Part shown: piece by piece, positions 1-48,215 of the stretch
How the letters are laid out: the number at the start of each line of letters is the position of its first letter
How positions within the stretch are numbered: the stretch's first letter is position 1
Assembly (NCBI GenBank): GCA_030605565.1
Contig: JAUWIB010000037.1
Location: 1-63,929, forward strand
Source of the DNA: a bacterium
GTDB taxonomy: Bacteria > Zixibacteria > MSB-5A5 > GN15 > FEB-12
Direction of reading: 5' to 3'
Length of the DNA: 63,929 nucleotides
Notes under the pieces: model-generated
What the model saw: only the letters and a program-made list of their open reading frames with translations
Told to the model about the DNA's origin: nothing
Database searches by the model: none
Position numbers and translations under genes: made by a program

Positions 1-377
1 TGTTTGACTGGATTGTAATGAACATAATCAAGGTGGCGTCTCATATCATCATCATCCCGAATCATGTGATCCCAGAACCTGTTTTGCCAGGTTCGACCCG
101 ACATCCGACCATGGTCCCTCAAGTGATGCTGGGCAAACGACAGCTTGATACATTTCATCAGTTTTGATACGTCATTTCGTTTTGGATCAATAATAAGATG
201 CCAGTGATCCGGTACAATCACCCATGCTATAAGCTGAAACGGTTCTCTCTCATTGTATTTGTGGATAGCATCCCAGAGCAGATCAACGTTATCGAGAAGC
301 ATCGTTTTGCGTTCATAAGTAACATGTGTAAGGAAGTAGGTGTTACCGGGTGAGAAGTATCTTCGTATGTTTCTCAT
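1..377 (-). CDS. REP-associated tyrosine transposase (RAYT, IS200-like Y1 family), 3' end cut by window
   Basis: The reverse strand reads MRNIRRYFSPGNTYFLTHVT and, further on, an AWVIVPDHWHLII segment. These match the Y1/RAYT N-terminal region and its HUH-like 'PDHWH' motif. A later HYNPVK motif, typical of RAYTs, lies at the window edge. The enzyme class is a single-strand DNA nuclease that acts on REP hairpins. The start ATG is at 375-377; upstream in frame there is a TGA with no other start between. The gene continues beyond base 1, so the catalytic tyrosine is only partly assessable. A GTAG-headed hairpin lies just upstream at 427-456, the usual REPtron arrangement. Confidence 0.85.
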   Translation of the reverse strand, partial: MRNIRRYFSPGNTYFLTHVTYERKTMLLDNVDLLWDAIHKYNEREPFQLIAWVIVPDHWHLIIDPKRNDVSKLMKCIKLSFAQHHLRDHGRMSGRTWQNRFWDHMIRDDDDMRRHLDYVHYNPVK

Positions 378-426
378 GTCGTGAATGTAATTGAAACAGA
401 TAAGACCGGCAAGTCATGAGCAAGAT

Positions 427-456
427 GTCGGAACCCGCAAGGGGGTTCCGACCTAC
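427..456 (-). repeat. GTAG-headed REP-like hairpin next to the RAYT gene
   Basis: On the reverse strand it reads GTAG, then GTCGGAACCC, a short CCTTGC loop and GGGTTCCGAC, a perfect 10-bp stem. The GTAG overlaps the stop codon of the neighbouring secreted-protein gene. The hairpin probably also serves as that gene's terminator. Similar elements occur at 40866, 43836 and 56650-56738. Confidence 0.75.
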
Positions 457-1694
457 TGCTGCTTGGAGTTGGTGTCGATCTCTTTCGCCCGCCGTTCGAA
501 GTAGCGCAGGTCCATTTGATAATAGCGTGAGGGTCCGTCGGGGTTCTGGGGATCGGTGATGTCGAGCGGTTCGGCTTCTGGGTGTCCGTCGGGCATGGGG
601 GAGACCTTGCTCACAACGCCATAGCTGGTCGGATAATAGGTCGCGGTCAGGATATGGTCCCAGGTGCGCGCTTCCGCCGGTGGCGCATCGTTGGCCCGTC
701 CCTCCATGCGAAACTCATGGATCCCCTGCGGTTTCCAGTAGACTCTGGTCACGTAAACAGGGAAGTACGAGTCATTGGTTGAGGCATACCCGCCCAGCCC
801 AGCCAGGGTGTAGTATGGAAACTGCGACCCGCCCCCTTCTTCCTGGTCTATCTGCACCAGGGCGATGTTTGGCCCGGTGGCGCCGCTCAGTTGCACGTAG
901 CATTTCCCCTCCAGCACAATGTAGCCGTCGGCAGGGGTCTCGATTTGCAGCGTCACCAAATCGGTCATCTCCATAGTGACCAGAGTGACCGGGCTGACCC
1001 TGATGTATGTCACATAGCCTGTTTCATTCAGGATCTCGCCGCTGCTCACGGATGCATAGGGCAGAGTCACGCTTTCGTCACCGATCAGGTCGCCGTGCAG
1101 GGCAATACCGGTCTCGCCGTCGGTTCGGTTCAGCAACAACTGCCCGCCGGAATCGGCATCGGCCTGCAGACGAATGTGCTCCTGTCCCAGTTCATCATAG
1201 AGCGACAAACGTCGTTCATCGGCGAACGTCCCGATTGCCAGCGTGTCGTTGCTGTCGGTAACGAACAGATCGCGAGTGACCAGGGCGTACGGCACGACCC
1301 CGAGGAGAGTGCGCATGTTGATTACCTCGCCTTCCGTCGTCAACTCCAGATAACGCGGGCTCCCGTCAGTGAAAAGATTGCGAGGAAAACTGTTTAGCGA
1401 TCCCATCAGGTGACTGAACAAACCATCGCTGGTGGTCACTGTGGTCGTCTCGGCCCAGAGTAGCAGGCCGCCGAGAGAATCATCGTAGATCGCAAACTGC
1501 AGGTCATAGGAACCATTTGCGACCGGACTGCCTCCGGCTCCTGTCAGTCGCCCCTGGTAATTGATCACCATCGGTGCGGCCAGGACCTGGGACATCATCA
1601 GGATTAGTATCACAATCGGTCCCGCCAGAGCGGCTCGACGCGTAGTGGTGGCATGTAGCATTCTCATCCTCACTTGAATGGTACGAAACGGCAT
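453..1694 (-). CDS. Secreted protein with N-terminal 'INYQGRL' domain
   Basis: This is a 413-aa protein with a long N-terminal hydrophobic stretch (about residues 20-40) that fits a signal peptide ending near VLAAP. The mature part opens with MVINYQGRLTGAGGSPVANG, then a beta-rich segment that includes 'PYALV'. The same architecture (INYQG opening, 'F..G.SRWL' and 'PYAYHA' segments) occurs in the protein at 48769-49623, so these are paralogues of a secreted family common in FCB-type genomes. An internal start at Met10 or Met12 would give a more usual signal peptide. No enzymatic motif is visible. The function is unknown; an extracellular or fibre-like structural role is only a guess. Confidence 0.7.
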   Translation of the reverse strand: MPFRTIQVRMRMLHATTTRRAALAGPIVILILMMSQVLAAPMVINYQGRLTGAGGSPVANGSYDLQFAIYDDSLGGLLLWAETTTVTTSDGLFSHLMGSLNSFPRNLFTDGSPRYLELTTEGEVINMRTLLGVVPYALVTRDLFVTDSNDTLAIGTFADERRLSLYDELGQEHIRLQADADSGGQLLLNRTDGETGIALHGDLIGDESVTLPYASVSSGEILNETGYVTYIRVSPVTLVTMEMTDLVTLQIETPADGYIVLEGKCYVQLSGATGPNIALVQIDQEEGGGSQFPYYTLAGLGGYASTNDSYFPVYVTRVYWKPQGIHEFRMEGRANDAPPAEARTWDHILTATYYPTSYGVVSKVSPMPDGHPEAEPLDITDPQNPDGPSRYYQMDLRYFERRAKEIDTNSKQQ

Positions 1695-41542: not shown

Positions 41543-42346
41543 TCAAATGCGTATCAAGAACACTGGGTCATTATAGAATCGCGACTGCCTGCACGAGAAG
41601 TTGTGGTACTTTGCGGTCCAGATGTACTTCTTGTATATGTCAGGGTTTTCCCGAAACCTCTCCAGATTCGATTTTATGGAACCCTTGTGATTCAGAAGTA
41701 TTATTGCTTCTTTAGAAGGATCGCGACCAGTGTGAACTGGATGTAAGTAGTTAATGAATCTTACGTTATCATAATCCACGAACACACAATCAGTATACCG
41801 CCCATTGGCTTTAATGTCAGGGCGGGCGTCAACAAACTGTTCCGCTGATTGAAGGAGAATAATCCGCGGGTACGAAGCCCGCTTTTCAGCCTCTGCCAGC
41901 TCGTTCAGAAGATGACCGAACACGAGGTTGTCCCCAATGTGGATGCTGCCAACAGCGATCCCGCCTCTTATGAACAAACCATCTCTTGCCAACTGCAATT
42001 GTAAATGAACCATGTTCCAGCATGCTTGGGAAAACTCGAATCGTACGCTGTCCGCCACAAGGGATGGATATCCAACAATCACGTTGTCGGAGAAAACCTT
42101 CATGCGCCATTTCACACCACTGGGATCATCAATGTGTGAATGTGCGTTCTGCAGTTTTTGATTGAGCCACTCGAGTTCTTCTTGCTCTGTCCCGTTTTCG
42201 TGCGCTGTGCGCATCCTGTCCTTGTAGCCAAGTATATCAACAATTGCGACCACAGATTGCTCCATGATCGGCTTGCCGTCAGCATCGAAGTATGGCTTTT
42301 GTTGATTGTTCACAATGCTGTATACGTTCCTCCCTGTTAGGAGCAC
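41543..42346 (-). CDS. Class III nucleotidyl cyclase-like protein, uncharacterised
   Basis: Up to 267 aa. It shows the order of motifs of a class III cyclase fold: VVAIVDILGYKDRM (Asp37), KVFSDNVIVGYPS (Asp87), then IRGGIAVGSIHIGDNLVFGH and a helix-strand ending RIILLQSAEQF. The two aspartates sit where metal-binding residues are expected. The remaining active-site residues cannot be assigned with confidence. There is no sensor or transmembrane part. The longest start (GTG 42346) lies inside a repeat hairpin; GTG 42310 or ATG 42265 may be the real one. Cyclases of this compact type can act in Pycsar-type defence, but no recognised effector is adjacent. Function unproven. Confidence 0.5.
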   Translation of the reverse strand: MLLTGRNVYSIVNNQQKPYFDADGKPIMEQSVVAIVDILGYKDRMRTAHENGTEQEELEWLNQKLQNAHSHIDDPSGVKWRMKVFSDNVIVGYPSLVADSVRFEFSQACWNMVHLQLQLARDGLFIRGGIAVGSIHIGDNLVFGHLLNELAEAEKRASYPRIILLQSAEQFVDARPDIKANGRYTDCVFVDYDNVRFINYLHPVHTGRDPSKEAIILLNHKGSIKSNLERFRENPDIYKKYIWTAKYHNFSCRQSRFYNDPVFLIRI

Positions 42347-42381: not shown

Positions 42382-43752
42382 CTATGCTTCGGGATCAAAC
42401 ATCTTCTGCGCATATTTGGATTTCAGTTCATCAATGTATCGCAAGAAGACTGGCTTCTCTCCAACCTTCATCTTCTGTATTACAGTTTCAAGGCCACGGA
42501 TACTGTTCCCAATCCTGGACTCGATGCGCGAAGCGATGTCATCAAGACTTAGCAGCCGCAATCCAGAGACCAGAATGTCCTTGGCTCCTACTACCGCTCC
42601 ATACGGCATAACGATAAGAGACGCAATCGTATGAACGAAATGAGCAGTTCGGCGCTGCATAAGTTCGCGGTGATGGCGAGGTAACTCACTGTTGATTGCC
42701 CGCCTATACTCCTGCAGCAAGTCCTGTTCGATCTCGTCAAGTTCATGCATTAGGTAGACAAGACGTTCTGGATCAGCCATGGTGAGCCCTGCTTTCGTCC
42801 TCGTCTGAATTGCATTGTACTTGTCGACAAACGACCCTTCGATTGCGATCCGGTGCAATTCGATGGCATCTTCAATCGTCAGTGCATCTAGAAGGTCTGT
42901 TGGAAAATAGGTGGACGTACTGGTTTTAACAAGATCGACAAAGATCTTGAAGAAGACCTCATGTTCCGATAAAGACGTTCTCGCCCCGCTCAGATCCGAT
43001 AAACGAAAGTCAATGATGTTCTCTTGGGGGAGAATTCCTTCAGAGTCAACCGCTCGCGCACCGGAGAGATAATACAGAAAATCAGCGTAAGAATTGATAG
43101 TCTCTCTGAGTGTCAATTCGTTACACTGCTTGGACGCTCGGTAGACAACACCACGGCTTAGCGACTCTGTGTTCTCTAGTTCAGAACACAAGGATTCAGG
43201 AACCTTCAGACCCTTCTCCAAAAGTATGAGGCTTGGTAGACTGTTGGTGTTCCGAAGATCGGAAATTAGACGAGACTTGAACCAGTTACTCGTTTCGCTG
43301 GTGTTCCACTTCACTGGTTGGGCACTAGTGTCGATCAGTTGAGCCATTTCGCGCTGCTCAGCACCGTGATATAGCGTTGCCTCCCCTGGTGATAGAGATT
43401 CCCGTTTGGCCTCGAGAAAATCGACGCAGGTCGGAAACTCTTCGCGGAGTGCAGGAACGATTATGCGTTCAGAGAATAGTTGGGGGTGCGGGAATATGAC
43501 CTCACGAGCAAGCTCTGATTCGAGCAAGTGAGAAGCAGCTATAATGACGTGTCCCTTTGTTAGAGCTAGTAGCTTCAGTTTTCGGATCAGGTTACGCTTG
43601 ATCCCCTCCACGTCACTAGCCGTCCACGCGACTTGGGAATAGGTAACGCGGTCGAATTCAGTGAAGTAAACTCGGTTTGTATTGAGTCCGCCCGGTTCAG
43701 CTTTGATCACTGCCCTGTTACCTTGTTTTGTCGCGAGGCCCGTCAGTCCCAT
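42382..43752 (-). CDS. Uncharacterised 456-aa protein of the islet
   Basis: I do not recognise this protein. It starts MGLTGLATKQGNRAVIKAEP (ATG 43752; TTG 43758 is two codons further upstream), has no signal peptide, and looks mainly helical. The second half is rich in charged helices (ELDEIEQDLLQEYRRAI, RIESRIGNSIRGLETVIQKM), with one hydrophobic stretch near FVHTIASLIVMPYGAVVGA. It lies immediately upstream of the cyclase-like gene on the same strand and has the same lower-GC, atypical codon look. It could be a partner of that gene, but only position supports this. Confidence 0.55.
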   Translation of the reverse strand: MGLTGLATKQGNRAVIKAEPGGLNTNRVYFTEFDRVTYSQVAWTASDVEGIKRNLIRKLKLLALTKGHVIIAASHLLESELAREVIFPHPQLFSERIIVPALREEFPTCVDFLEAKRESLSPGEATLYHGAEQREMAQLIDTSAQPVKWNTSETSNWFKSRLISDLRNTNSLPSLILLEKGLKVPESLCSELENTESLSRGVVYRASKQCNELTLRETINSYADFLYYLSGARAVDSEGILPQENIIDFRLSDLSGARTSLSEHEVFFKIFVDLVKTSTSTYFPTDLLDALTIEDAIELHRIAIEGSFVDKYNAIQTRTKAGLTMADPERLVYLMHELDEIEQDLLQEYRRAINSELPRHHRELMQRRTAHFVHTIASLIVMPYGAVVGAKDILVSGLRLLSLDDIASRIESRIGNSIRGLETVIQKMKVGEKPVFLRYIDELKSKYAQKMFDPEA

Positions 43753-43835
43753 AGGCAACCACTACGGTATCCAGACCACGTACCGTTTCTTGGAGTCCAC
43801 TATGCGGGGCTCGGTATTCCCGACATCTACTTTGC

Positions 43836-43882: not shown

Positions 43883-44710
43883 CTACTTCCCATACGATTC
43901 CTCATCACCGGGGTAGTCGCCGGCTTTGACGTCGGCGATGAAACGCGTGACGGCGTCTGAAATGATAGGGGAGAGGTCGGCGTATTGGCGCACGAACTTT
44001 GGTTTGAATTCACCTTCGCCCAAACCAAGAATGTCATTGATGACCAGTACCTGGCCATCGCAATGAACGCCCGCGCCGATCCCGATAGTGGCGCATGTCT
44101 TCAGGCTTTCAGTGATCTCTCTTGCGGTGTCGGTCTCGACTAACTCAAGCACCATCGAAAAGCAACCGGCATCTTCCAAAGCAAGAGCGGATTCCTTTAG
44201 ATAGGTCTGAGATTTTTTCTTCCTGCCCTGAATCTTCGGTCCACCGAAGCGATGTATCGACTGCGGTGTCAAACCAATATGCCCCATCACCGGGATACCT
44301 ACCTCGACCAGTCGCTTGATAGTCGGCGCCATCTCGGTTCCGCCTTCGAGTTTGACGGCGTGCGCGCCGCCTTCCTTGAGGAACCGCCCGGCGTTCAGGA
44401 TAGCCGTCTCGGTCGATGGTTGAAACGACAGAAACGGCATGTCGCCGACGACCAAAGCCGACTCATTCCCACGCGACACGGCAGCGGTATGGGCAATCAT
44501 AACGTCCATTGTGATCGGAAGGGTCGAGTCGTAACCATGCACTACGTTGGCGGCGGAGTCACCGACCAGGATGATGTCGATCCCACACTGGTCAAGAACC
44601 TTCGCCATGAACCAGTCGTACGCGGTCAACACGACGATCTTCTCGCCGCTCGCCTTCTTCTTGACGATCCGACCAACCGTCATTCGCTTTTTGTCGGTAA
44701 TGTATCCCAT
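43883..44710 (-). CDS. panB: 3-methyl-2-oxobutanoate hydroxymethyltransferase
   Basis: A 275-aa protein with the family motifs VVLTAYDWFMAKVLDQCGID, VGDSAANVVHGYDSTLP, VKLEGG and GHIGLTPQSIHRFGG. It makes ketopantoate from ketoisovalerate and methylenetetrahydrofolate, the first step toward pantothenate and CoA. It is the last gene of a reverse-strand operon, nine bases after the kinase gene. Use of a folate cofactor suits its place beside folB and folK. Confidence 0.95.
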   Translation of the reverse strand: MGYITDKKRMTVGRIVKKKASGEKIVVLTAYDWFMAKVLDQCGIDIILVGDSAANVVHGYDSTLPITMDVMIAHTAAVSRGNESALVVGDMPFLSFQPSTETAILNAGRFLKEGGAHAVKLEGGTEMAPTIKRLVEVGIPVMGHIGLTPQSIHRFGGPKIQGRKKKSQTYLKESALALEDAGCFSMVLELVETDTAREITESLKTCATIGIGAGVHCDGQVLVINDILGLGEGEFKPKFVRQYADLSPIISDAVTRFIADVKAGDYPGDEESYGK

Positions 44711-44719
44711 TCTGTTTCG

Positions 44720-45379
44720 TCAAAATAACACGTTGCCGGCAGGAACATAGTACTTCTTGCCGGTTACAGGTTTTCCGATCTGCTCGATCAAGTCATCGAA
44801 ATGCTCTGGGTTCTCCACGAAGTCGATTTCATCCGTCTTTATTACCAGCAGTGGTGTCTCCGTGTAGTTGAAGAAGTAATAATCGTAAGCCTGATTCAGC
44901 ATTTCTACGTAATCCGAGTTGATTACTTTCTCAAAAGTGAAATTCCGTTTGCGAATTCGCTGCAACAACACCGGGGTCGAGGCCTGAAGATAGATAGCCA
45001 TGTCCGGGTTGGGAATGTCCCTTGACAGGATCGGGGCGATTTTGTCATACAAGGTCAACTCCCGCTCGGACAGATTGACCGACGCGAAGATAGCATCTTT
45101 GGCAAAGAGATAGTCGGTAACAATGCGCTGGGCGAACAGGTCGCGTACCATCAACTGCTGCTGCTGCTGGAATCGTGACAGAAGGAAAAACAACTGGCAG
45201 GAGAAGGCGTACCGCTTGCGCTGCTTGTAGAAATCAACCAGGAAGGGGTTCTCGTGCACTTCCTCGGCGATCAGTTCCGCCTTGAGGCGATCGGCCAGCA
45301 TTTCGGCAAACGAGGTCTTGCCAACTCCGATCACTCCCTCGACAGCGATATAGTTGGGCTTATGGTTGTCGTGCAACAT
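44720..45379 (-). CDS. Deoxynucleoside kinase (dGK/dAK family)
   Basis: A 219-aa P-loop kinase: NYIAVEGVIGVGKTSFAEML near residue 10, an FQQQQQLMVRDLF segment, and YLQASTPVLLQRIRKRN as the substrate/lid region. It phosphorylates deoxynucleosides for salvage; the substrate preference cannot be read from sequence. The start overlaps the 3' end of folK by 20 bases. Confidence 0.9.
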   Translation of the reverse strand: MLHDNHKPNYIAVEGVIGVGKTSFAEMLADRLKAELIAEEVHENPFLVDFYKQRKRYAFSCQLFFLLSRFQQQQQLMVRDLFAQRIVTDYLFAKDAIFASVNLSERELTLYDKIAPILSRDIPNPDMAIYLQASTPVLLQRIRKRNFTFEKVINSDYVEMLNQAYDYYFFNYTETPLLVIKTDEIDFVENPEHFDDLIEQIGKPVTGKKYYVPAGNVLF

Positions 45380-45869
45380 GGTCCTTATAGAGCATCACTT
45401 TACTGCGATCATCATCGCTGAGAAAGTCAGACACCGGCCTCTTTGTCACGGGGTGCACCACCTCTGGGTCGATTTGCAGCATCGGCGCCATGGCGAAGGG
45501 ACGATTCAGCAACTCCCGGTGCGGTATCGAAAGCCTGTCGGTCTCGATAATCTGCTGACCGAACATGAGGATATCCAGATCGATAGAACGCGGCAGCTTC
45601 TCGCCTTTTGCCGTTCGCCCAAGTTTCTTCTCAATCAGTTCCAGGCCGTTCAGCAATTCGTTGGCGGAGTAGCGGTAGTCGGCCATGATGACCTGGTTCA
45701 TGAAAGACGGATTTTCGCCGACCATGTCCTGCGCTTCCGATACGTAGATCGCCGATGTAGCCACGATTTCCAACCCCTCGATGAGGTGCATTTTCTCCAG
45801 CGCAAGCGCGAGATTTTTCTCGCGATCACCCATATTGGATCCGGACAGGATGAAGACAGTTTCAGACAT
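45360..45869 (-). CDS. folK: 2-amino-4-hydroxy-6-hydroxymethyldihydropteridine pyrophosphokinase
   Basis: A 169-aa protein with LSGSNMGDREKNLALALEKM at the start and RSIDLDILMFGQQ...LSIPHRELLNRPFAMAPML, the HPPK signature including the metal-binding DLD. It transfers pyrophosphate from ATP to the pterin in folate synthesis. It lies nine bases after folB. Confidence 0.94.
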   Translation of the reverse strand: MSETVFILSGSNMGDREKNLALALEKMHLIEGLEIVATSAIYVSEAQDMVGENPSFMNQVIMADYRYSANELLNGLELIEKKLGRTAKGEKLPRSIDLDILMFGQQIIETDRLSIPHRELLNRPFAMAPMLQIDPEVVHPVTKRPVSDFLSDDDRSKVMLYKDHVARQP

Positions 45870-45878
45870 CGCATACCT

Positions 45879-46271
45879 CTATGACTGGTTATCGATAAGT
45901 TTTGCCGTATCGGCCTGGTGGCGTGTCAACTCCACTTCGATATGTTTGACACCACCGCGCACCGGCGGGTTCAGCTTGCGAACGCGCAGGGTCACGCTGT
46001 AGACGCCGAAGCGATCCAGCACCCGCGCCGCCAATTCTCCGGCCAACCGCTCCAACAGGGAAAAGGCTTTGCCCTCGACCGTTTCCCTTATCGTTTCGTA
46101 TACGCGGGCATAATCGACGGTGTCGGTTAATTGATCGGACTTGCCGGCCTCAGCCAGGTCAACCTCAAGCTCGCAATCAACCTCGAACATCCGGCCGGTT
46201 TCGCGTTCGGCGGCGCTGACACCATGGTAGCCGTAGAACGACATGCCGATCATGCGGATTATATCTTTCAT
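45879..46271 (-). CDS. folB: Dihydroneopterin aldolase
   Basis: A 130-aa protein: IIRMIGMSFYGYHGVSAAE with the catalytic Tyr/His region, a VDYARVYETIRETVEG segment and FSLLERLAGELAARVLDRF. It cleaves dihydroneopterin to the folK substrate. Its ATGA overlaps the stop of the preceding aminotransferase-like gene, with GAGGA as the ribosome site. Confidence 0.94.
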   Translation of the reverse strand: MKDIIRMIGMSFYGYHGVSAAERETGRMFEVDCELEVDLAEAGKSDQLTDTVDYARVYETIRETVEGKAFSLLERLAGELAARVLDRFGVYSVTLRVRKLNPPVRGGVKHIEVELTRHQADTAKLIDNQS

Positions 46272-47443
46272 TCTTCCTCGGTCAGTTTGGCAGCGCGGCG
46301 CTTCCGGAGTCGTTTGCGGGCTTGAGCAAAGGTCTCCGGCCCGGCGGTAAGGGACAGGCGCAAGTAACCTTCGCCTACATCACCGAAAGCGGCGCCGGGT
46401 GTGACGAGGATACGACTTCGTTTCAGCAGCCGATCGGCGGCGCGTTTCGAAGGGCTGCGACGGGGCAGTCGAGCCCACGCAAAAGGAACGGAATCGACCC
46501 CGGCCTTTTCCAGTTTCAGCATATCCATCAGCACGGTCGCCTCGGCGGCGGCCAATGATATCAGTCGGCGAACGTTCTGCAGCGATCTATTAGGGTACTG
46601 CCGAATTGCCTCCAACGCTGCCTGAACCTGATACGCCGATAGATGAGGACGAACCAGGCCCGAGGCCTGCTTCAGCCCGCTGATAACGTCCCGGTGGCCG
46701 ACAACAAAAGCCAGAGGCAGGGAGGGCAGACCGAAGTGATAGGCGAACGAACCGACCTCGACGCCCACTTTCCGACCACCGGCGGCACTCATCAGACTGG
46801 CCGGCTTGCGACCGGTGACGGTCTGATAGGCAGCATCATTGATCACCATGATATTCTCTTTGCCGGCCAGCCAGACCAGGTCAGCCATGTCTTTCTCGCC
46901 CAACTCTGCTCCGGTCGGGTTGTGGGGTGAATTGACGAAGAGGACGCGTGCCACCCGTCCCAGCCGTGTTCCGACCCGCTGGAAATTCGGCAGCCAGTCA
47001 TCCTGAGACGACACCGAGTAAGTCACCGGTTCTCCGCCGCAGGCTGTCACCACTTTGCGATACAACGGTAGGCCAAGAGCGGGCACGAAGGCGATATCAC
47101 CGTGATCGACAAAGGCCAAAGCCAGGCACAGCATATTGCTGGAAATCGAGTTGCCGATGAAGACTTCCCGCAGGGGGCTGAGCCGCGCGTTGTACACTGA
47201 GTTGTACCATCCAGCCAAATCTTCCTTCAGGCGCTGCATGGCTTCCTTACCAGCCGGGGCCAGGGGATGATCGTCGGATAGTGCGATGTCGGGCGGTGGT
47301 GGCCACCGGAAATCGGCCAGATTCAGAACTTCCGGTTTCTTTAGAAGGGATCGACTTTTCTCGGCCCGTCGGAACGACATCAGATCCGGCGGTGACTGGT
47401 AAAGCCGATTAGCCTTCTCGACAATGATTTTCTTGATCGGCAC
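46268..47443 (-). CDS. Class I/II aminotransferase-fold protein lacking the catalytic lysine
   Basis: A 391-aa PLP fold-type I protein. Recognisable are FVNSPHNPTGAELGEKD (Asn of NPTG), NIMVINDAAY (Asp and Tyr) and GYLRLSL (substrate Arg). The internal aldimine site, normally SxSK followed by a G.R motif, reads SFAYHFGLPSLPLAF: Tyr235 replaces the lysine and the Arg is also gone. The frame is intact and codons are normal, so it is not an obvious pseudogene. It may bind PLP-like ligands without transaminating, or use other chemistry. It is tightly packed in the operon between the class II aldolase and folB. Confidence 0.85.
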   Translation of the reverse strand: MPIKKIIVEKANRLYQSPPDLMSFRRAEKSRSLLKKPEVLNLADFRWPPPPDIALSDDHPLAPAGKEAMQRLKEDLAGWYNSVYNARLSPLREVFIGNSISSNMLCLALAFVDHGDIAFVPALGLPLYRKVVTACGGEPVTYSVSSQDDWLPNFQRVGTRLGRVARVLFVNSPHNPTGAELGEKDMADLVWLAGKENIMVINDAAYQTVTGRKPASLMSAAGGRKVGVEVGSFAYHFGLPSLPLAFVVGHRDVISGLKQASGLVRPHLSAYQVQAALEAIRQYPNRSLQNVRRLISLAAAEATVLMDMLKLEKAGVDSVPFAWARLPRRSPSKRAADRLLKRSRILVTPGAAFGDVGEGYLRLSLTAGPETFAQARKRLRKRRAAKLTEEE

Positions 47444-47455
47444 GGAAACGACCTG

Positions 47456-48115
47456 TTAGACTTTGTGGTCCCAGGTTTTGTCCATATTTTGGCGCATTTG
47501 TTCGAGTCGTTTGAAATCCTCGCTGGGGATGGCCTCGATATTCCCCAGATGTCGCGCCAGCAAGACAATCCGGGCATAGTGCTCGACCAGCTCGTGACGA
47601 TTGTAAGCCTCTTCCAGACTCCCGCCAATCGTGAGCAGACCGTGGTTTCTCAGCAGGAAGGCGTTACAAATGTCGACGTGCGGTTCGATAGATCGCGGCA
47701 CCTCATCGGTACCAGGACCGGCGTAGTCTGTCAATGGAATGCGCCCGACCGACACTACTACCTCCGGCAGGATATCCTCCTCAAGCTGAATCCCGGCCAC
47801 GGCAAATGCGGTCGCGTGCGGAGGGTGAGCGTGGATGCAGGCCTTGACGTCACTACGGCGCTGGTAGACAAGCAAATGCATAGCCAGTTCGGCCGAGGCG
47901 CGGAGATTGCCCTGGAGATGATTGCCGTTGATATCGACTATCACCATGTCCTCGGCCGCCAGGCGACCTTTGGGCAGCCCGGAGGGGGTGACCATTATGC
48001 GGTCATCGTCGAGCCGCACGGATAGATTGCCATCGGTGCCGGCGATCATGCCCTGCTCGTACAGGCGGCGGCCGTAATCGGCCAGCGCGCTCTTCATGGT
48101 AAACGGTGATGCCAT
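47456..48115 (-). CDS. Class II aldolase/adducin-family protein (fuculose-phosphate aldolase-like)
   Basis: A 219-aa protein with the zinc-aldolase layout: GMIAGTDGNLSVRLDDDRIMVTPSG at the N-terminus, CIHAHPPHATAFA with two metal histidines, and LRNHGLLTIGGSLEEAY. It probably cleaves a phosphorylated sugar or related hydroxyaldehyde; the substrate is unknown. It is the first gene of the reverse operon that continues into the aminotransferase-fold gene (12-base gap) and the folate genes. The start is taken as ATG 48115; GTG 48121 is in frame. Confidence 0.87.
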   Translation of the reverse strand: MASPFTMKSALADYGRRLYEQGMIAGTDGNLSVRLDDDRIMVTPSGLPKGRLAAEDMVIVDINGNHLQGNLRASAELAMHLLVYQRRSDVKACIHAHPPHATAFAVAGIQLEEDILPEVVVSVGRIPLTDYAGPGTDEVPRSIEPHVDICNAFLLRNHGLLTIGGSLEEAYNRHELVEHYARIVLLARHLGNIEAIPSEDFKRLEQMRQNMDKTWDHKV

Positions 48116-48215
48116 AATCACAGGGCAAGGTAGAGGCTTCGGACCGGCTTGTCAACAACTTAGACGGGTGGGCAGGCTTGGACGCGCGGAGCGCAAGAAA
48201 CAGGCTTAGGCTTGT

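Follow-up and report, generated by a model that had tools for sequence, protein, structure and literature searches.

Within the aminotransferase fold, the reference residues are those of AAT: Lys258 forms the Schiff base with pyridoxal 5′-phosphate (PLP), Arg266 holds its phosphate, Asp222 faces the pyridine N1, Trp140 stacks on the ring, Arg386 receives the substrate α-carboxylate, and Asn194 and Tyr225 are the further reference positions. Relatives that do without the Lys are already on record. In serine palmitoyltransferase, the LCB1 subunit (SPTLC1) lacks the PLP Lys and its LCB2 partner possesses it, according to the cited part of PMC3794620, whilst the ColD/E1 sugar 3-dehydratases are presented in the relevant section of PMC8987622 as Lys-less aminotransferase relatives that employ a His base and PMP. 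Yeast Alt2, as outlined in the part of PMC3458083 referred to here, is a retained aminotransferase paralogue, catalytically inert and 65 % identical to its active sister.

The gene considered here lies on the minus strand of the window (the whole 63,929-nt stretch of DNA that was analysed), in the order class-II aldolase, Lys-less gene, folB, folK, deoxynucleoside kinase (dNK), panB (Table 1). Its GTG start is positioned 12 nt past the aldolase stop, and its own stop overlaps the folB start within a shared ATGA that is preceded by GAGGAAG. The earlier note's description of an intact gene adjoining folB is thus borne out, the reading frame running for 391 codons with no internal stop. Also on the minus strand, a pair of genes adjoining each other (41543–42346 and 42382–43758) has no Pfam match and no PADLOC defence-gene match at E 0.01; the former reads, we presume, like a degenerate nucleotidyl-cyclase-type domain.

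Table 1. The operon in the window and the codons of the catalytic-site positions in the Lys-less gene
Feature	Position	Strand	Remarks
Class-II aldolase/adducin-family gene	47456..48121	−	Pfam PF00596
Lys-less aminotransferase-fold gene	46268..47443	−	391 aa, GTG start
Asn175 of NPTG	46919..46921	−	Retained in 108/116 readable orthologues
Asp203, pyridine-N1 Asp position	46835..46837	−	Retained in 111/116 readable orthologues
Tyr235 (TAT), Schiff-base Lys position	46739..46741	−	From sequence and alignments
Pro243, PLP-phosphate Arg position	46715..46717	−	Arg in 2/112 readable orthologues
Arg362, presumed substrate α-carboxylate Arg position	46358..46360	−	Arg in 109/109 readable orthologues
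folB	45879..46271	−	TIGR00525 above cut-off
folK	45360..45869	−	TIGR01498 above cut-off
dNK	44720..45379	−	PF01712 above cut-off
panB	43883..44710	−	TIGR00222 above cut-off

With regard to the protein itself, PF00155 (Aminotran_1_2; E 1.1e-32) is the sole Pfam match at E 0.001 across all 391 aa, and no N-terminal DNA-binding domain of the type that defines the MocR/GabR regulators (in the cited part of PMC5320631) is recognised. By Foldseek and VIA-align alike, the solved structure that ranks first is BacF from Bacillus (6l1l), at 26 % identity. An AlphaFold2 model (pLDDT 87, with low confidence for residues 1–17 and 25–32) superposes on BacF with a Z of 40.5 and an rmsd of 2.7 over 351 aligned residues, and as modelled the protein keeps the aminotransferase fold (fold type I). 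The predicted fold is similarly retained in L134, an orthologue from a clade without Asp203 (pLDDT 85, Z 42.1, rmsd 2.9, 379 residues aligned).

In the phmmer alignment with BacF, SFSKTFNMAGWR of the Lys-less protein stands opposite SFAYHFGLPSLP, such that BacF displays SFSK and Arg where the Lys-less protein has SFAY and Pro. By this alignment, the Lys has been replaced by Tyr235 and the Arg, eight residues further on, by Pro243, in agreement with the earlier note, which had held both to be lost. The NPTG motif, the Asp–Tyr pair and the C-terminal Arg, which it had described as kept, are indeed found as Asn175, Asp203, Tyr206 and Arg362. We take Arg362 to occupy the position of the substrate α-carboxylate Arg; Leu125 lies at a position where a PLP-stacking aromatic is expected, a role that we likewise assume. 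The loss of PLP–lysine chemistry from this protein is well supported.

Orthologues, counted whether complete or truncated at a contig end, occur in 116 of the 132 genomes of the phylum sample, as 117 distinct sequences. Strong, near full-length matches (E < 1e-60) are present in 38 of 41 genomes when the genus, family and order are taken together, and the orthologues aligned from 30 of these (those with loci given) all lack Lys at the site. Across the phylum, the 114 readable sequences display Tyr (61), Phe (24), Thr (12), Leu (6) or His (4) at this position, as well as one each of Lys, Ala, Asp, Pro, Val, Ile and Ser, and a three-residue deletion removes the site from three further orthologues (L117, L118 and L119, of family f13). 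The earlier note had pointed to Lys in orthologues as the mark of a sequencing or strain-specific defect; with one such Lys among these 114 sequences from 116 genomes, the Lys-less orthologues rule out either explanation. Its suggestion of a non-transaminase role is well supported, since Lys is all but absent amongst the orthologues, and Tyr, the fixation of which it had raised, is fixed or nearly so within the protein's own family (50/51) and in family f2 (7/7), not in the phylum as a whole.

The one Lys-bearing orthologue, L125 of genome G101, has Asp at its phosphate-Arg position and is placed next to a congener with Thr, on a very short branch nested inside the Lys-less clade; it offers a natural experiment on whether PLP binding returns with the Lys alone. 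Two further orthologues (L028 and L029) display Arg at the phosphate position and Phe at the Lys site. The G073 bin harbours two copies of the gene (L164 and L165) on two contigs, and may represent mixed strains. Amongst the 80 loci listed by a search that extended to other phyla, all 52 that are not orthologues (L059–L110) carry the Lys, although Lys-less relatives may exist elsewhere; these 52, unfiltered for Lys, and 10 hand-chosen sequences make up the 62 Lys-bearing comparators used for the site.

The setting of the gene is conserved across most of the phylum. Counting one locus per genome, and neighbours on the same strand within 4.5 kb, the 116 genomes contain FolB in 109 cases, FolK in 107, dNK in 103, the aldolase in 97 and PanB in 73, many loci being too short for panB. 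The order seen in the window is the usual one, and a variant (aldolase, Lys-less gene, dNK, folB, folK, panB) occurs in four genomes. Of the seven loci without FolB, five stop ≤123 bases from a contig end, and G047 and G082 are true departures from FolB linkage. The aldolase is absent in 19 of the 116, just five of which lie ≤56 bases from a contig edge, and the tie to folB is therefore the stronger of the two. In 54 of the relatives' loci, some of them from the same genome, an additional ORF follows panB, which we take to be panC. At locus L142 of family f17, a partly masked stretch upstream shares the stop-to-stop frame of the gene, and reads like an AcpS fragment. The 16 most recurrent neighbour clusters with sequences given contain no recognisable aminotransferase other than the Lys-less protein, nor was any gene fusion hinting at a partner recognised in the loci viewed.

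The gene was not counted in 16 of the 132 genomes, in each of which the best remaining match is an ordinary Lys-bearing aminotransferase. Eight of these (G005, G006, G009, G054, G103, G106, G110 and G125) also have no folK match, and hence their operon is either gone or unassembled; a contig end truncates it in G046 and G118, in G129 the gene is split into two ORFs, and G050 contains folB–folK–panB alone. The Lys-less gene is cleanly gone from an operon that is otherwise present in G083/G084 and G114/G115, although the G084 contig ends within folK, leaving dNK and panB out of view there. At least two lineages have thus kept the operon without the gene, so that folB, folK and the genes around them do not depend on it in those lineages; this argues against a subunit that is strictly required.

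When 57 operon members and 20 hand-chosen Lys-bearing homologues are placed in one tree, by a quick search without bootstrap and with the site columns excluded, a single branch separates the two sets (SH-aLRT 99); the exact sister of the operon members is left open by this tree. The highest-scoring Lys-bearing homologues are LL-diaminopimelate-aminotransferase-like paralogues carried by a small number of genomes from the same class. Values of dN/dS are 0.10–0.13 in five close pairs (of six tried, the sixth being saturated), somewhat higher than the values of about 0.02–0.10 for neighbour genes; the Lys-less gene is under purifying selection, with a dN/dS of about 0.1. When 378 columns are ranked by conservation, Arg362 comes 1st, Asp203 10th and Asn175 21st, whilst the Lys site is 152nd, the phosphate-Arg site 166th and the stacking position 302nd. 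The Arg362 position is invariant down to about 25 % identity, and Asp203 is replaced by Arg in four family-f17 sequences. It is mainly because Arg362, Asp203 and Asn175 are kept, whilst the Lys and phosphate-Arg sites drift, that a retained carboxylate pocket is proposed.

The best NCBIfam profiles for the protein are those of DapL (TIGR03540 / PRK09276), with which it shares its fold, and Asp41-Leu42, Glu229 and Trp323 are common to it and the DapL-like paralogues. It scores, however, 165.2 bits with TIGR03540 against a cut-off of 593.25, and has neither the Lys nor the phosphate Arg; a true DapL is ruled out by this score and by the Lys site. The DapL-like paralogues, at 396–502 bits, also fall under the cut-off. 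A contribution of the gene to diaminopimelate (DAP) synthesis is unsupported, dapF being present in 24 of the 25 genomes searched (22 above cut-off). At locus L254, a Lys-bearing aminotransferase (169–1386, plus strand), which we take to be of the LysN/2-aminoadipate-like type, lies directly before dapF and is a candidate for the role of DAP aminotransferase in this order. Under profile-based naming, the Lys-less proteins could be labelled LL-diaminopimelate aminotransferase, with the consequence that a probably absent activity would enter metabolic reconstructions of this uncultured phylum.

Because most genomes of the phylum keep the protein in the same operon, it probably has another job. 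The explanation that best accommodates these sequence comparisons, to which we would assign a probability of about one half, is that of a pseudo-aminotransferase which has kept a carboxylate pocket and serves its operon without catalysis, by binding a ligand, by regulation or as a scaffold. An ancestor of the phylum would have gained, within the aldolase–folB–folK–dNK–panB operon, a copy of an LL-diaminopimelate-aminotransferase-like gene, and Schiff-base chemistry would have been lost, most simply once, with retention of fold type I and of the substrate-carboxylate pocket (Arg362, Asn175 and mostly Asp203). The resulting non-catalytic protein, presumably a homodimer, may bind a carboxylate metabolite, and could modulate or scaffold the enzymes made from the same mRNA. 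A more specific version, that this cofactor-free, phylum-wide family of single origin senses, at the old carboxylate site, a metabolite such as a keto acid or pantoate-like acid and tunes the folate and pantothenate enzymes of the same mRNA, is tentative, and we would not bet on it. Arg362 could also be conserved for folding rather than for a ligand, which is counted against the pocket-bearing pseudo-aminotransferase, as are the Arg in place of Asp203 in family f17 and the clean absence of the gene from the operons of G083, G084, G114 and G115. A further point against it is that, for plant LL-DAP aminotransferase, the PDB contains ligand complexes of the K270N and K270Q variants with shortened titles that read external aldimine (‘Ext’), so that a PLP adduct may still bind when the Lys alone is lost. 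For a part in folate metabolism itself, synteny offers no more than a suggestion, as the operon also holds panB, dNK and the aldolase, and two lineages have kept folB and folK without the gene.

Several other explanations bear on the same evidence. The protein might still be an enzyme, using non-covalent PMP or free PLP, or another cofactor, in the manner of ColD/E1. The cited section of PMC8987622 indicates that catalysis is possible in a Lys-less aminotransferase fold; Asp203, Asn175 and Tyr/Phe206 are mostly retained, and His is found at the Lys site in 4/114 sequences. We nevertheless hold an enzyme of this kind to be unlikely: most members have also lost the phosphate Arg and the stacking aromatic, no conserved substitute appears at the Lys site, and the family includes the three members from which that site is deleted and the four in which Asp203 has become Arg. 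If the protein served FolB/FolK or the aldolase solely as a structural scaffold or chaperone, with no ligand, the FolB linkage and the overlap of the gene with folB in the window would fit, yet an Arg that stays invariant at about 25 % identity is more than a scaffold obviously needs, and in two lineages the operon persists in the absence of the gene, making this an improbable account.

More doubtful still is a pairing with an active aminotransferase in which the protein, like LCB1, would form the non-catalytic half of a heterodimer; LCB1 itself lacks the PLP Lys that LCB2 has (in the part of PMC3794620 cited above). Distant partners do exist, with 16 PF00155 matches in the protein's own genome, the Lys-less gene included. 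A close Lys-bearing paralogue (TIGR03540 ≥ 396 bits), on the other hand, is present in nine of the 132 genomes, and it is the presence of such a strong DapL-like match in just 7 of the 116 carriers that disfavours a heterodimer with a close active paralogue; G105 has an additional DapL-like fragment at a contig edge (307 bits). The top TIGR03540 match of the protein's own genome, at 269 bits, is an ordinary Lys-bearing homologue, and the recurrent neighbour clusters surveyed above do not supply a second aminotransferase either. Finally, the combined loss of Lys, Arg and stacking residue might suggest a decaying pseudogene or an assembly error, and the gene is indeed in two ORFs in G129 and has an internal stop in G076. 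All other operon matches listed are open, however, and with dN/dS at about 0.1 and the operon kept, decay or misassembly is barely credible for the family and is refuted by the orthologues.

Among the papers listed from the open-licence PMC literature, none was recognised as describing the Lys-less family. Comparison is made with the systems introduced at the outset. LCB1, as far as the cited text describes it, has a related active subunit as its partner, whereas no close active paralogue was found in 109 of the 116 carriers of the Lys-less gene. The ColD/E1 enzymes, in the section cited, place a His at the Lys site; the Lys-less protein has Tyr, and its family no fixed residue. The likeness to Alt2 is that of a retained, catalytically inert aminotransferase paralogue; Alt2 differs as a yeast protein with an active sister at 65 % identity. 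Earlier Lys-less folds related to aminotransferases were single cases (LCB1, ColD), whilst the family described here combines phylum-deep retention and a mostly fixed place in a vitamin operon with a drifting catalytic site and a frozen carboxylate Arg, and as such offers a clear test case for the transition from enzyme to non-enzyme.
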